Of a stretch of 43,354 nt of DNA, positions 3,669-43,342 are shown one piece after another; position 1 is the stretch's first letter; every line of letters starts with the position of its first letter. Source of the stretch: an uncultured Bacteroidota bacterium (lineage in GTDB: Bacteria; Bacteroidota; Bacteroidia; 2-12-FULL-35-15); NCBI GenBank assembly GCA_903870175.1, contig CAIQBY010000033.1, positions 1 to 43,354 of the forward strand, read 5' to 3'. The notes under the pieces are model-generated. The model searched no databases. It saw only the letters and a program-made list of their open reading frames with translations, and was not told where the DNA came from. The position numbers were made by a program, and so were the translations under genes.

Positions 3669-3740
3669 CTCACGCGGTATCTTTTTTTACTTCTATTTTT
3701 TCCCTGCGGGGCAAAGGTAAAAAAAAGGATACTCACGCGG
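3669..3740. repeat. Long imperfect inverted repeat after ruvB
   Basis: CTCACGCGGTATC and a T-run (3669-3690) are answered by a poly-A run with GGATACTCACGCGGG (3717-3740), around a central CCCTGCGGGG. The outer CACGCGG is direct, while GTATC/GGATAC and the T/A runs are inverted, so a stem of about 14 bp is possible. It may act as a terminator for ruvB or be a mobile palindromic element. Confidence 0.5.
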
Positions 3741-3801
3741 GTCAGGCGCAGTTGCAAGTCCATCGTCCTCCGCAAGTTTCAAGTTACTTCCCGAAAACAC
3801 T

Positions 3802-3948
3802 CTTTTGCCAAAAGCATACGCCATTTTGCCAAAAGTATGCTCCATTTTGCCAAAAGCATACACCCTTTTGCTAAAAGCATGCAACCTTTTAGCAAAAGCA
3901 TGCAACCTTTTAGCAAAAGCATGGGCTCTTTTGGCAAAAGAACACTTC
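3802..3948. repeat. Tandem array A: seven 21-bp units, TTTTG(C/G)CAAAA core
   Basis: Seven consecutive units start at 3802, 3823, 3844, 3865, 3886, 3907 and 3928, each exactly 21 bp. Each has a near-palindromic 11-bp core (TTTTGCCAAAA three times, TTTTGCTAAAA, TTTTAGCAAAA twice, TTTTGGCAAAA) followed by a 10-bp spacer such as GCATGCAACC. The order of cores makes the array roughly mirror-symmetric: units 4 and 5 form a perfect 12-bp inverted repeat (3866-3877 with 3886-3897, loop CATGCAAC). Open reading frames through it are heptad artefacts of the period. Confidence 0.85.
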
Positions 3949-13205: not shown

Positions 13206-13709
13206 ATGTATAAACAACACCTTTTATTTAATCTCGAAAGAGAAATTATTTTGCTGAAACAACTGGCTGTTTTCATCGAAGAAAAAGACCTTGATTACCG
13301 GCCGAACGAAAAAGTAAGGAGCACTTATGAATTGATGCAGTATCTATCCGGCATTGGCAGTATTATGATGAGGCGATTTGTAAAAAATGATATTACTCCA
13401 GAGGAAAGGGAAAAAATAATGGCTTACCGAAGTACGCTTACTCTTGGTAATTTTCAGGAACGGCTTGATGAACAATGGGAACAGATTAAAATGTATATGG
13501 GCGAAATTACCGATGAAGAACTCTTAACAAAGGAAATTGAATTGCCCTGGAAAGAAAAAATGGTGGTGGGTGCAGCAATAATCAATGCTCCAATAAAGTG
13601 GCTTGCGGCTTACCGGATGGAACTTTTTTTGTATTTAAAAATGAATGGAAAATCTGCCATTGGTACAAAAGATGCCTGGGTTCCTGAAAATACAGTTGCC
13701 AACTCATAA
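13206..13709 (+). CDS. DinB-superfamily protein
   Basis: The 167-residue helical protein resembles the DinB/YfiT four-helix-bundle family, some members of which are metal-dependent thiol transferases. The conserved C-terminal segment YRMELFLYLKMNGKSAIGT followed by KDAW is typical of the Bacteroidota group. The expected three-histidine metal site is not obvious: only one histidine (residue 5) is visible, so this member may not bind metal in the classical way. It is divergent from the DUF2851 gene and followed by repeat array B. Confidence 0.8.
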   Translation: MYKQHLLFNLEREIILLKQLAVFIEEKDLDYRPNEKVRSTYELMQYLSGIGSIMMRRFVKNDITPEEREKIMAYRSTLTLGNFQERLDEQWEQIKMYMGEITDEELLTKEIELPWKEKMVVGAAIINAPIKWLAAYRMELFLYLKMNGKSAIGTKDAWVPENTVANS

Positions 13710-13774
13710 TTGAAAACCAAAGCTTTTTCGATAGAAGTTTATCCTTTCGTTTTAATCTTGAATACCAATTTATC

Positions 13775-14001
13775 AGAGTTCAAGACTTTTTAGTCCATTG
13801 TTCTACCTTTTAGTCAATTGTTCTAGAACAATTGTCCAAAGTTCAGGAGCAATTGCGCAAAGTTCTAGAACAATCGGGTAAAGTTCTAGAACAATTGGGT
13901 AAAGTTCCAGAACAATTGACAAAAGTTCTAGAACATTTGCTTAAAGTTCCAGAACAATTGACTAAAAGGTAGAACAATTGACTAAAAGGTTAGAACTCTT
14001 C
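13775..14001. repeat. Tandem array B: 21-bp units with GTTCTAGAAC palindrome, flanked by inverted arms
   Basis: Seven 21-bp units begin at 13820, 13841, 13862, 13883, 13904, 13925 and 13946 and one 20-bp unit at 13967. Most carry GTTCTAGAAC or GTTCCAGAAC followed by AATTG and A-rich bases, so CAATTG palindromes alternate with GTTCTAGAAC. The array is bounded by arms of about 44 bp, 13786-13829 and 13946-13989, that are reverse complements at 41 of 44 positions. Similarity extends outward to about 13775 and 14001. A transcript or single strand could fold into one long hairpin. The rest of the 440-bp gap between dinB and queG holds nothing I recognise. Confidence 0.88.
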
Positions 14002-14149
14002 AAAAGAAGGATAAAGGAACCTGAAATAAGTAACAACAAATTCTCCAAAAGCAATCAAATGTGTATAAAAAGCAATCGTTTTCAGTTATTTATGATTGAG
14101 TTTTGAGTTTAACCCTTACCCATATTTTGTTGTTTAAAAATTAGAAATA

Positions 14150-15076
14150 GTGAATCCAGCAAAAAATACAGAGCTAATTAAGAGAGAAATAAAGCGTTTG
14201 GGTTTCGATTATTGCGGGATTTCAAAAGCTGATTTTTTGGAAGAGGAAGCTCCGCGATTGGAAAATTGGCTGAAAAATAATATGCATGGAAAGATGGAAT
14301 ACATGCAAAATCATTTTGATAAAAGATTAGACCCCAGATTACTTGTTCCAAATTCAAAGTCGGTTATTTCTCTGCTGCTTAATTATTTTCCGGAAGAAAA
14401 ACAGAAGGACGAAACTGCTCCCAAAATCAGCAAATATGCTTTTGGGATGGATTATCATTTTGTGATTAAGGAAAAATTGAACGCTTTATTGGAATTCATC
14501 AGGGAGAATATTGGAGAAATTGATGGACGTGCATTCGTAGATTCGGCGCCTGTGCTTGATAAAGCCTGGGCAAAGAAAAGCGGATTGGGATGGATAGGGA
14601 AAAATAGCAATTTGATAAATAAAAACAGCGGTTCGTTTTATTTTATTGCCGAATTAATTATTGATTTAGAGTTGGATTATGATAAAGAAATAAAAGATTA
14701 TTGCGGAACATGTACTCGTTGCATTGATGCCTGCCCTACATCAGCAATTGTTGCTCCTTATGTGGTTGACGGCAGCAAATGCATTTCGTATTTTACTATC
14801 GAATTGAAGGAAAATATCCCTTCGGAAATGAAAGGGAAATTTGATAATTGGGTTTTCGGCTGCGATATTTGTCAGGATGTTTGTCCTTGGAACAGTTTTT
14901 CCAAACCTCATAAAGAACCTTATTTCAATCCAAAAACTGAGCTTCTGGAAATGACGAAAAAAGACTTTTACGAATTAACAGAAGAAACCTTTAAACGTGT
15001 GTTTAAGGATTCGGCTGTTAAGCGAACTAAATTCAGCGGGCTAAAAAAGAATCTTGATTTTATTAAGCCAGATTAA
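14150..15076 (+). CDS. queG: Epoxyqueuosine reductase QueG
   Basis: QueG is the cobalamin- and iron-sulfur-dependent enzyme that performs the last step of queuosine tRNA modification. The 308-residue protein has the normal length. Motifs are [21 protein letters not shown] (catalytic Asp and cobalamin region, from about residue 130), a first cluster C185-x2-C188-x2-C191-x3-C195-P, and a second with C238-x2-C241-x3-C245-P plus C211. The start codon is GTG; no ATG lies in frame upstream before the repeat array. Its last four bases overlap the convergent small gene at 15073. Function is confident. Confidence 0.96.
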
Positions 15077-23498: not shown

Positions 23499-23575
23499 CT
23501 TCAACAAATTATATACTTTGTTGAAGAAAGTATATAATTTGTTGAAGAAAGTACATACTTTGTAAATAAAATTCT
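23499..23575. repeat. Array C: short 21-bp repeat with inverted first unit
   Basis: Two 21-bp units (23517-23537 and 23538-23558) share TTTGTTGAAGAAAGTA and are followed by a decayed third. The preceding 21 bases (23499-23519, CTTCAACAAATTATATACTT and one more T) are the exact reverse complement of 23527-23547, giving a perfect 21-bp hairpin with a 7-base loop. This is a minimal version of the arrangement in arrays B and D. The surrounding gap 23282-24058 otherwise holds only AT-rich sequence and the element at 23926. Confidence 0.75.
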
Positions 23576-29794: not shown

Positions 29795-29798
29795 GAAA

Positions 29799-29848
29799 AT
29801 TACGAATTGCGAATTACGAATTACGAACGTAATTCGTAATTCGTAATT
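29799..29848. repeat. Palindromic AATTACGAATTACG element
   Basis: GAATTACGAATTACG (29811-29825) and CGTAATTCGTAATTC (29828-29842) form a perfect 15-bp stem with a 2-base centre. It fills the gap between the DUF2723 gene and the deacetylase and ends five bases before the deacetylase TTG start. Confidence 0.75.
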
Positions 29849-36162: not shown

Positions 36163-36321
36163 AAGGAGACGTAAATAGGTTCTACGCTTTAGCTTTGCAC
36201 CTCTACGCTCTAACTGTTCTGCTCTACGCTCGAGCTTTGCACCTCTACGCTCGAGTGTTTCTGTTCTACGCTCTATCGGGGAACCTAATTGCTCGAGCGT
36301 AGAACCTATTTGCGTCTCCTT
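36163..36321. repeat. Tandem array D: five 21-bp TCTACGCT units between inverted arms
   Basis: Units starting at 36181, 36202, 36223, 36244 and 36265 are exactly 21 bp and begin TCTACGCT. Units 1 and 3 share GCTTTGCACC and units 2 and 4 share TGTT/TTCTG-type ends, giving a 42-bp higher-order period. The array is bounded by arms 36163-36193 and 36291-36321, reverse complements at 28 of 31 positions. This is the same arrangement as array B with unrelated sequence. It lies between convergent genes. Confidence 0.87.
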
Positions 36322-36442
36322 TGCACCTTTTTGGATTATTTAGCAGCTACTTTAATTGAGTTATCTCTTACAAACCACCAATAAAAAGGAGGAACAACTC
36401 CCGTTACCCCTCCAGACTAATAAACCAATGACTAATGACTAA

Positions 36443-41597: not shown

Positions 41598-41725
41598 TAA
41601 GATTCGATATTCAATCGTTTTAATAAGTTTTTGATTTTATTATATATATGAGTCTTTTTTTGGTAAAAAGGTTGCATTTGATTTGAAGATATATGAAAGC
41701 AGCGTTTCCGGGTATCTCCGATGCG

Positions 41726-42145
41726 TTTCAGTTTAACATGAAGACGTTTCAGTTTGACATGAAGACGTTTCAATTTGACATGAAGACGTTCCAGTTTGAC
41801 ATGAAGACGTTTCAGTTTGGCATGAAGACGTTCCAGTTTGACATGAAGACGTTTCAGTTTGGCATGAAGACATTCCAGTTTGGCATGAAGACTTTCCAGT
41901 TTGACATGAAGACGTTCCAGTTTGACATGAAGACGTTTCAGTTTGGCATGAAGACGTTCCAGTTTGACATGAAGACGTTTCAGTTTGGCATGAAGACGTT
42001 CCAGTTTGATACGAAGACATTCCAGTTTGACACGAAGACGTTTCAGTTTGGCATGAAGACGTTCCAGTTTGATACGAAGACATTCCAGTTTGACATGAAG
42101 ATGTTCCAGTTTGACACGAAGACGTTTCAATTTTTGATTAAAGCA
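41726..42145. repeat. Tandem array E: about twenty 21-bp CAGTTTGACATGAAGACG units
   Basis: Nineteen well-kept units and a decayed twentieth follow each other with exact 21-bp spacing. Most read TT(T/C)CAGTTTG(A/G)CATGAAGACG. Two unit types alternate over units 4-13 (42-bp higher-order period). Units 14-19 repeat as a 63-bp block (units 14 and 17 are identical). Three frames on the two strands are open through the array (FQFDMKT heptads on plus, LHVKLER heptads on minus), simply because 21 is a multiple of three. Unlike the other arrays, I see no inverted ends. It adjoins array F. Confidence 0.88.
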
Positions 42146-42210: not shown

Positions 42211-42531
42211 TTTTTAATGTCAAAAAAACTTTCAATAACTTCATTGGAACAATAAATCTCAAGATTAAAATATTTTATAACTTTATTATTCACTCCAATA
42301 ATGTTGTAGAATATTTTTATAATCTTAAAAATTGTTTCAATTACATTAAAAGCCATGGCTTTTAATGTGATAAAATATTTCTTTAATATCATTAGTACAA
42401 CTTTTCACATCATTGTTGTGAACAATAATGTGAAAGAATATTTAAATCGTACTAAAAAATATTTTTTTAATTTGATTGAAACTTTAAATCTCGAGATTTA
42501 AACATTATATCATTTAACTGGAATAATATTT
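42211..42531. repeat. Array F: degenerate 21-bp-period tract with perfect palindromes
   Basis: The heptamer AATATTT recurs at 42310, 42374, 42437, 42458 and 42525, and AATATTTT at 42269. The spacings (41, 64, 63, 21, 67) fall close to multiples of 21. Units such as TTTATAACTTTATTATT and TTTATAATCTTAAAAATT align at 21- or 42-bp steps. The tract holds perfect palindromes of 26 bp (42343-42368, half-site ACATTAAAAGCCA) and 20 bp (42483-42502, half-site TTTAAATCTC), plus an imperfect one at 42399-42434. It is a decayed or fast-diverging relative of the other arrays. Stop codons interrupt all readings. Confidence 0.65.
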
Positions 42532-42723
42532 AACACAAAAACCGATTTTTGAGGGTTTAATGGGGTTTCAGAGGGTTGGAGGTGGAAAAAAGGGTGTTTT
42601 TGGAGGAAAATAAAGAAAAACAAGAAAAATTTTTAGAGTAAAAATAATTCGATTTTGAGTATAAATTTGTGTGATTAAAATTTATACCTATTTCTATTAA
42701 TCATCACTTTTTCAATTGCTGCC

Positions 42724-42750
42724 TTTGCAGGTGTTTTTTTCACCTGCAAA
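42724..42750. repeat. Perfect stem-loop upstream of the Y1 transposase
   Basis: TTTGCAGGTG (42724-42733) and CACCTGCAAA (42741-42750) form a perfect 10-bp stem with a seven-T loop, 58 bp before the transposase ATG. Y1 transposases recognise hairpins of this size, so it could be a left-end structure. A regulatory hairpin is the alternative. Confidence 0.6.
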
Positions 42751-42808
42751 CTTTGTACTCTCAAAATATATTCAGCATCTATTCCTATCAAATGAGTACT
42801 TTTACAAA

Positions 42809-43342
42809 ATGCCATCCATCAGAAAAGAATCCAATGTTTATTTTTTCACAGCCACCAATCTAAACTGGGTTAAACTACTTGAAGATGACGAACACAAAAA
42901 ATTAGTAATTAGCAGTTTGAAATTTTTAAGTGATAACAAAAGAGTAAAAGTAATAGCCTTCGTAATAATGCCAAACCATATACATATTATATGGGAAATA
43001 CTTGCCCCTCATAAAACCGAAAATATACAAAGAGATTTTTTGAAATACACCGCCCAGCAAATAAAGTGGAGTTTAGTAAATAAAGATTCTACTTTGTTGG
43101 ATGCTATCAGAGTAAATGCAAAAGACAGAAGATACCAGCTTTGGGAACGAAATCCTAATTGGTTTGCACTTGATAATACAGTAACTCTTTTGCAAAAGTT
43201 AAACTACATTCATAATAATCCTTGTCAGGCAAAATGGTTATTGGCAGACAAGCCGGAAGATTATAAATATTCAAGTGCACAATACTATATTTTAGATGAC
43301 AAAGATTTTGATTTCCTTACAAGTTACAAGGATATAATGTAA
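42809..43342 (+). CDS. REP-associated-type Y1 (IS200-like) transposase
   Basis: The 177-residue protein, from ATG 42809 (MPSIRKESNVYFFTATN), belongs to the single-strand HUH Y1 transposase superfamily. The metal-binding HUH motif is IMPNHIHIIWEI (His57, His59) and Tyr80 (FLKYTAQQIKWS) is a candidate catalytic tyrosine. The C-terminal YIHNNPCQAKWLLADKPEDYKYSSAQYY is typical of the REP-associated (TnpA-REP, RAYT) group. The gene appears complete. It follows a perfect stem-loop and a 320-bp palindrome-rich tract (array F), fitting a protein that acts on palindromic DNA. The right end of the element is not visible because the window ends 12 bp later. A possible -7 box (TAAATTTG) is at 42662-42669. 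Confidence 0.9.
   Translation: MPSIRKESNVYFFTATNLNWVKLLEDDEHKKLVISSLKFLSDNKRVKVIAFVIMPNHIHIIWEILAPHKTENIQRDFLKYTAQQIKWSLVNKDSTLLDAIRVNAKDRRYQLWERNPNWFALDNTVTLLQKLNYIHNNPCQAKWLLADKPEDYKYSSAQYYILDDKDFDFLTSYKDIM

Follow-up and report, generated by a model that had tools for sequence, protein, structure and literature searches.

A 21-bp satellite array with a reversed end in a freshwater Bacteroidetes-type bacterium, and similar arrays in its genus

In a 43,354-nucleotide stretch of DNA from a freshwater Bacteroidetes-type bacterium (hereafter referred to as the window) we have characterized an intergenic tandem array, designated array B, whose units change orientation at one end. The array is best read as non-coding and as belonging to the published class of "constant-size, variable-sequence 20-21 nt" satellites. 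It has a regular pitch, reversed units, a palindromic switch point and no open frame; this organization recurs in other arrays and other species, and the array is absent in relatives. We propose, with a probability of roughly two in three, that this 21-bp satellite grew by duplication and that one of its ends was subsequently reversed by a template switch at the palindromic core of its unit.

Results

Structure of array B

The initial annotation described array B as enclosed by 44-bp inverted arms built from its own units. The arms were borne out by the present analysis: the left arm (13786-13829) is identical to the reverse complement of the right one (13946-13989) at 41 of 44 positions in an ungapped comparison, a gapped alignment (13775-13829 vs 13946-13999) extends the similarity to 50 identical columns out of 55, and a 21-nt core (13805-13825 and 13970-13990) is 100% complementary. 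This is the top-scoring 44-nt inverted repeat of the 43-kb window (the runner-up reaches 35/44), and the best result obtained with 200 dinucleotide shuffles of the region was 28/44, with a mean of 25.0. The arms are indeed made from units of the array. The array begins on the left with two 20-nt units in reverse orientation, continues with seven direct 21-nt units and ends with two copies of a 20-bp variant (Table 1), and the reversed units correspond to the direct 20-nt variant at 13951-13990. An independent test also flagged the reversed units of the left arm, at 13785 and 13804. The notion of enclosure stands only in part: flanks strictly outside the arrays were inverted at 2 of 52 loci (0.5 expected), which is hardly above chance, so that the arms have to be considered array-derived and not the ends of a separate, inserted element.

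Table 1. Features of the window, with positions counted from its first nucleotide
Feature	Coordinates	Strand	Remarks
Array A, 21-bp class	3798..3940	.	End units pair perfectly across 14 nt (TCTTTTGCCAAAAG)
Upstream ORF, 167 aa	13206..13709	+	No Pfam match; DinB-like resemblance by eye only
Whole spacer of array B	13705..14060	+	Predicted hairpin (MFE -117.9 kcal/mol, z -11.5) takes in short flanks that are complementary
Array B, left inverted arm	13775..13829	-	Two reverse-oriented 20-nt units (13785-13804, 13805-13824); 41/44 ungapped, 50/55 gapped vs 13946-13999
Array B, perfect 20-bp palindrome CAATTGTTCTAGAACAATTG	13815..13834	.	Orientation switch point; inverted pair, direct sequence reading
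Array B, seven direct units	13820..13966	+	Exact 21-bp length in each; identity between pairs of units 71-95% (mean 81%); consensus GTTCTAGAACAATTGNNNAAA
Array B, right inverted arm	13946..13999	+	Direct 20-nt variant AGAACAATTGACTAAAAGGT, two copies at 13951-13990
Downstream gene queG (epoxyqueuosine reductase)	14150..15076	+	Pfam PF08331, PF13484
Array C, 21-bp class	23506..23563	.	Palindromic unit AAAGTATATACTTT
Array D, 21/42-bp class	36181..36334	.	Reversed unit at right end; arms AAGGAGACGYAAATAGGTTCTACGCT, 25/26
Array E, 21-bp pitch	41724..42133	.	~19.5 units, zero reversed units; direct-only contrast

The unit of array B is partly palindromic (GTTCTAGAAC, CAATTG). Because of this palindromic core, the inner units pair with one another at approximately 72%; the orientation of a unit can be read from only part of its sequence. 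The change from reverse to direct orientation sits on the same palindromic core. The two ends of the array are 91% alike, as compared with a mean of 81% for the inner units, and carry the same 20-bp variant; judging from these similarities, one end is probably a copy of the opposite one. As was originally claimed, units change orientation at one end, which lies beyond the reach of slippage alone. The variant present both in the reversed units and at the far end of the array is an unusual one. Folding of the tract as single-stranded RNA and DNA, which had been proposed as a check, gave predicted structures far more stable than those of shuffled sequences (positions 13770-14010: RNA, -105.7 kcal/mol, z -14.1; DNA, -65.7 kcal/mol, z -13.4).

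Genomic context of array B

The 167-aa ORF upstream of array B adjoins DUF2851 in congeners too. Congeners conserve both the DUF2851/167-aa block and the queG block, but not next to each other. Array B is single-copy (only self matches were detected in its genome), and no array was found upstream of queG in any of the approximately 30 congeners examined. There is no frame open across positions 13820-13986. Scans of the spacer revealed no sigma-70-like promoters, no Bacteroidetes-type TAnnTTTG elements and no intrinsic terminators (a GC-rich stem followed by a T run), and no Rfam family matches at the locus. Upstream of queG in L020 (G013) there is a long palindrome, starting with ACGTCATTGCGAGG, which resembles CGTC-tagged REP-like repeats (PMC3733652).

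Other repeats of the window

The orientation switch is not peculiar to array B. Within the window, the ends of arrays A and D are paired as well, and of 60 arrays of this class examined in three genomes of the genus, 13 contain at least two reverse-oriented units (reversed-sequence controls gave 1 and 0). The units of arrays A-E and of others differ in sequence within one genome.

Some further repeats were identified in the window. At positions 29798-29848 the heptamer AATTACG is repeated four times and is directly followed by three copies of its reverse complement, CGTAATT, which represents an orientation switch at a smaller period. The AT-rich spacer at 42234-42510 is full of palindromes (AAAGCCATGGCTTT, AAATCTCGAGATTT) and includes an inverted repeat with 34/44 matches; it may represent an array that has decayed, or diverged so far that Tandem Repeats Finder misses it. 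The left flank of array A (3698-3765) is a dispersed genomic repeat (L052:8765-8832, 91%; L113:5282-5340, 88%), which contains CGGGTC.GGCGCAGTTGCAAG.

The 21-bp arrays of the genus

Tandem Repeats Finder was used to survey 1.15 Mb comprising the genome of the window and two congeners. Of the 134 intergenic tandem arrays in these three genomes, 88 have a period of 21 bp or a multiple thereof, which gives approximately 77 per Mb (a few of the stretches had been picked for holding a match, with only a slight bias on density), whereas periods of 20 and 22 bp are represented by four intergenic arrays each. Outside the genus, arrays with such periods accounted for 2 of 21 in a 365-kb sample of 20 genomes from the same taxonomic class and for 2 of 12 in a 334-kb sample of 20 other genomes of the phylum; their density elsewhere in the phylum is approximately 6 per Mb. 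Unit sequences are mostly unrelated from array to array.

The ends of the arrays are complementary at 21 of 52 loci, as opposed to 0/52 in the reversed control and 2/214 among array-free spacers, with complementarity defined as exceeding the 99th percentile of a null built from the ends of other arrays; arrays A and D of the window belong to the 21. Palindromic units supply part of this end-to-end complementarity. Such units (p<=0.05) occur in 15 of 86 arrays, which is above expectation, although most arrays are devoid of one. Pairing between the two ends is better than pairing of the ends with the interior in only 12 of 46 arrays. A shared-word test of the flanks revealed no common terminal motif. 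The arrays show no preference for any type of spacer (tandem, divergent and convergent: 45/23/13 for arrays vs 278/113/75 for all spacers, with genes called by a simple script).

Two types of loci deserve separate mention. In L088:13212-13414 (G034) and L092:12614-12732 (G032) the 21-bp units are near-palindromic, and successive units change their central dinucleotide from GG to CC or back, exactly in phase. In G034, conserved flanks (left, TTTTGCAAAATGCTGANTATGTGTAANATGCAGTTA; right, approximately 50 nt) enclose different 42-bp arrays at L078:7029-7371 and L080:16527-16870 (G034:C5:127029 and 176527), and a further similar place is found at G034:C20:2921-2964. The units of these arrays retain a hairpin at a constant position, with stems that differ in sequence. 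Loci of this type could belong to a family of cassettes in which the ends are constant and the repeat interior varies.

Distribution and turnover

The unit pattern of array B, AAAGTTNNNNAACNNTTGNNNAAAGTTNNNNAAC, is present in 3 of 36 genomes of the genus, with one array in each, at unrelated loci. In a collection of named genomes it identified 21-bp palindromic arrays in a Prevotellaceae MAG and in another Bacteroidetes MAG, one match in a Scytonema MAG, and matches in Euryarchaeota and Bacillus which, judged by eye, appear to be coding coiled coils. The pattern was absent from viral contigs and from 295 further genomes of the phylum, and searches of viral contigs, phages and plasmids returned no match. 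At four out of four conserved gene pairs, an array present in one species was missing in the other. Array B is best explained as a satellite of fast turnover, of a kind that is very abundant in the genus. A link between arrays and synteny breakpoints was also considered, but the difference (2/23 broken vs 2/71 conserved pairs, p=0.25) was not significant.

Discussion

Origin of the reversed end

Under the origin that we propose, the array would have grown by duplication of its unit, via slippage or unequal exchange, in 21-bp steps corresponding to two helical turns. At the palindromic core (GTTCTAGAAC) the nascent strand would then have folded back and taken itself as template, with the result that one end was rewritten in the reverse orientation. 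Quasipalindrome template switching, a known process of the nascent strand (PMC7202029, PMC8794818), also raises the complementarity of inverted arms. The arms of array B are more complementary than expected and have a private 20-bp variant in common, which is the pattern by which such switching is recognized. Array B resembles the published quasipalindrome hotspots in that an imperfect inverted repeat would have become more perfect by arm copying, with the switch at a hairpin; it differs from them in that the event would have affected a tandem array and reversed whole units. The structure, the switch point and the recurrence are directly visible in the sequences, and from them we infer the template-switch step and its direction, both of which are probable.

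According to the initial annotation, either hairpin-mediated switching or an inversion was needed. The hairpin fold-back is the simpler of the two, because the switch point coincides with the palindromic core of the unit, while an inversion requires two free breakpoints; a two-break inversion followed by decay would be expected to produce a similar picture. A fold-back artefact of the assembly is unlikely: five columns differ between the arms, and like structures occur in other MAGs that were deposited separately.

Alternative explanations

The exact 21-bp phase points to a constraint at the DNA level or to a mutational step size, and a DNA-level function linked to this phase is possible. It has to be considered whether each 21-bp unit is a dyad-symmetric site for a dimeric nucleoid or regulatory protein bound along one face of the helix, in which case selection would hold pitch and symmetry as the sequence drifts, and reversed units would be tolerated. 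The arrays without an open frame hold phase despite their divergence: the ratio of indels to mismatches is 0.022 in these arrays (seven only, array B included), compared with 0.18-0.34 in other intergenic arrays. The excess of palindromic units and the in-phase GG/CC flips of the near-palindromic units in L088 and L092 are also in line with a phased array of binding sites. On the other hand, most arrays contain no palindromic unit, units are mostly unrelated between arrays, the flanks have no motif in common and array positions are not conserved, so that we regard this explanation as unlikely. Slightly less likely still is a broader version, in which a genus-wide chromosomal system places helical pitch and dyad symmetry, rather than base sequence, under selection; the arrays would be read by their shape, by a nucleoid protein or a hairpin-processing machinery, and reversed units would be a by-product of symmetric sites.

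A mobile origin, either as a MITE-like insertion or as a REP/BIME-type element moved by a Y1 transposase, appears improbable. Like the BIMEs and REPs associated with RAYT transposases (PMC2817692), array B is intergenic and palindromic, and contains units in both orientations. Related units occur at unrelated loci in two congeners, some arrays of G034 have common flanks at several loci (small dispersed families), and the window itself carries a gene for a Y1 (IS200-like) transposase at 42716-43342; related genes of congeners are flanked by hairpins such as TTTGCAGGTGNNNNCACCTGCAAA (L222, L200, L204, L205). However, REPs are multi-copy and conserved in sequence (PMC2817692), whereas array B occurs only once in its genome, has a sequence of its own and a pitch of 21 bp, and shares no common ends or terminal inverted repeats; the outer flanks of the arrays, as stated above, are hardly inverted beyond chance. 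An array was present within approximately 1.1 kb of all four Y1 copies in the sampled stretches, but none at the other Y1 loci of the window's own genome (G000) within the flanks covered.

A transcribed structure (a terminator or a small RNA forming a hairpin) or a heptad-repeat peptide (VLEQLxK) is a very improbable explanation. The predicted RNA fold is very stable, bacterial satellites of 52 nt are transcribed (PMC8161180), and the inner units can be read as heptads. Against this, terminator-like sites and Rfam matches are missing at the locus, the open frame required for a peptide is interrupted, and the triplet that varies most encodes different amino acids (S,R,G,G,T,L,T). Moreover, G-U is not over-represented among the arm mismatches on the gene strand (67 G-U vs 94 A-C), which, together with the retention of phase, argues for a cause at the DNA level, whether mutational or selective, rather than for an RNA hairpin or a peptide.

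Programmed inversion of the 116-bp centre, with the arms as recombination sites and expression of queG or the upstream gene as the target, would fit the 44-nt arms of 93% identity flanking a short segment, as in invertible promoters (invertons), and the tandem gene context, but it is highly improbable given that the centre is itself a repeat array devoid of promoter-like sites and TAnnTTTG elements, that similar arrays occupy all types of spacers, and that a Pfam scan of 30 ORFs of the window revealed no recombinase.

Relation to known satellites

In Bacillus and other bacteria, Subirana and Messeguer found intergenic tandem repeats that vary in sequence but keep a constant size, either 20-21 or 52 nt; these authors pointed out that a length of 20-21 nt corresponds to two helical turns, and left the function open (PMC6749651, PMC8161180). 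In that class, a short conserved sequence is shared by the repeats of most arrays of a species. The arrays analysed here share with these satellites the 20-21 nt pitch (21 bp for inner and 20 bp for outer units), the intergenic location and the array-specific sequence, and they are likewise species-specific and abundant in some genomes only. They differ in their host, a Bacteroidetes-type genus (neither PMC6749651 nor PMC8161180 mentions "Bacteroid"), and in that periods at multiples of 21 are common. Neither paper describes the reversed units and paired ends seen here. With respect to the openly accessible literature (an earlier mention elsewhere is possible), this study thus adds to the satellite class a new taxon, the density of the arrays, periods at multiples of 21, and the reversal of units together with the pairing of ends.

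Conclusions

Dozens of similar arrays per million bases are present in close relatives, and array B is therefore no one-off but typical of a kind of bacterial repeat that has been little studied. The analysis addresses the open question of why some bacteria carry many tandem repeats of fixed length and unrelated sequence, and it introduces a genus in which the sampled stretches carry approximately 77 such arrays per Mb; many of these arrays switch orientation internally. The comparison of strains could reveal directly how arrays arise, lengthen and become reversed, and whether the pitch of two helical turns reflects selection or a mutational step.
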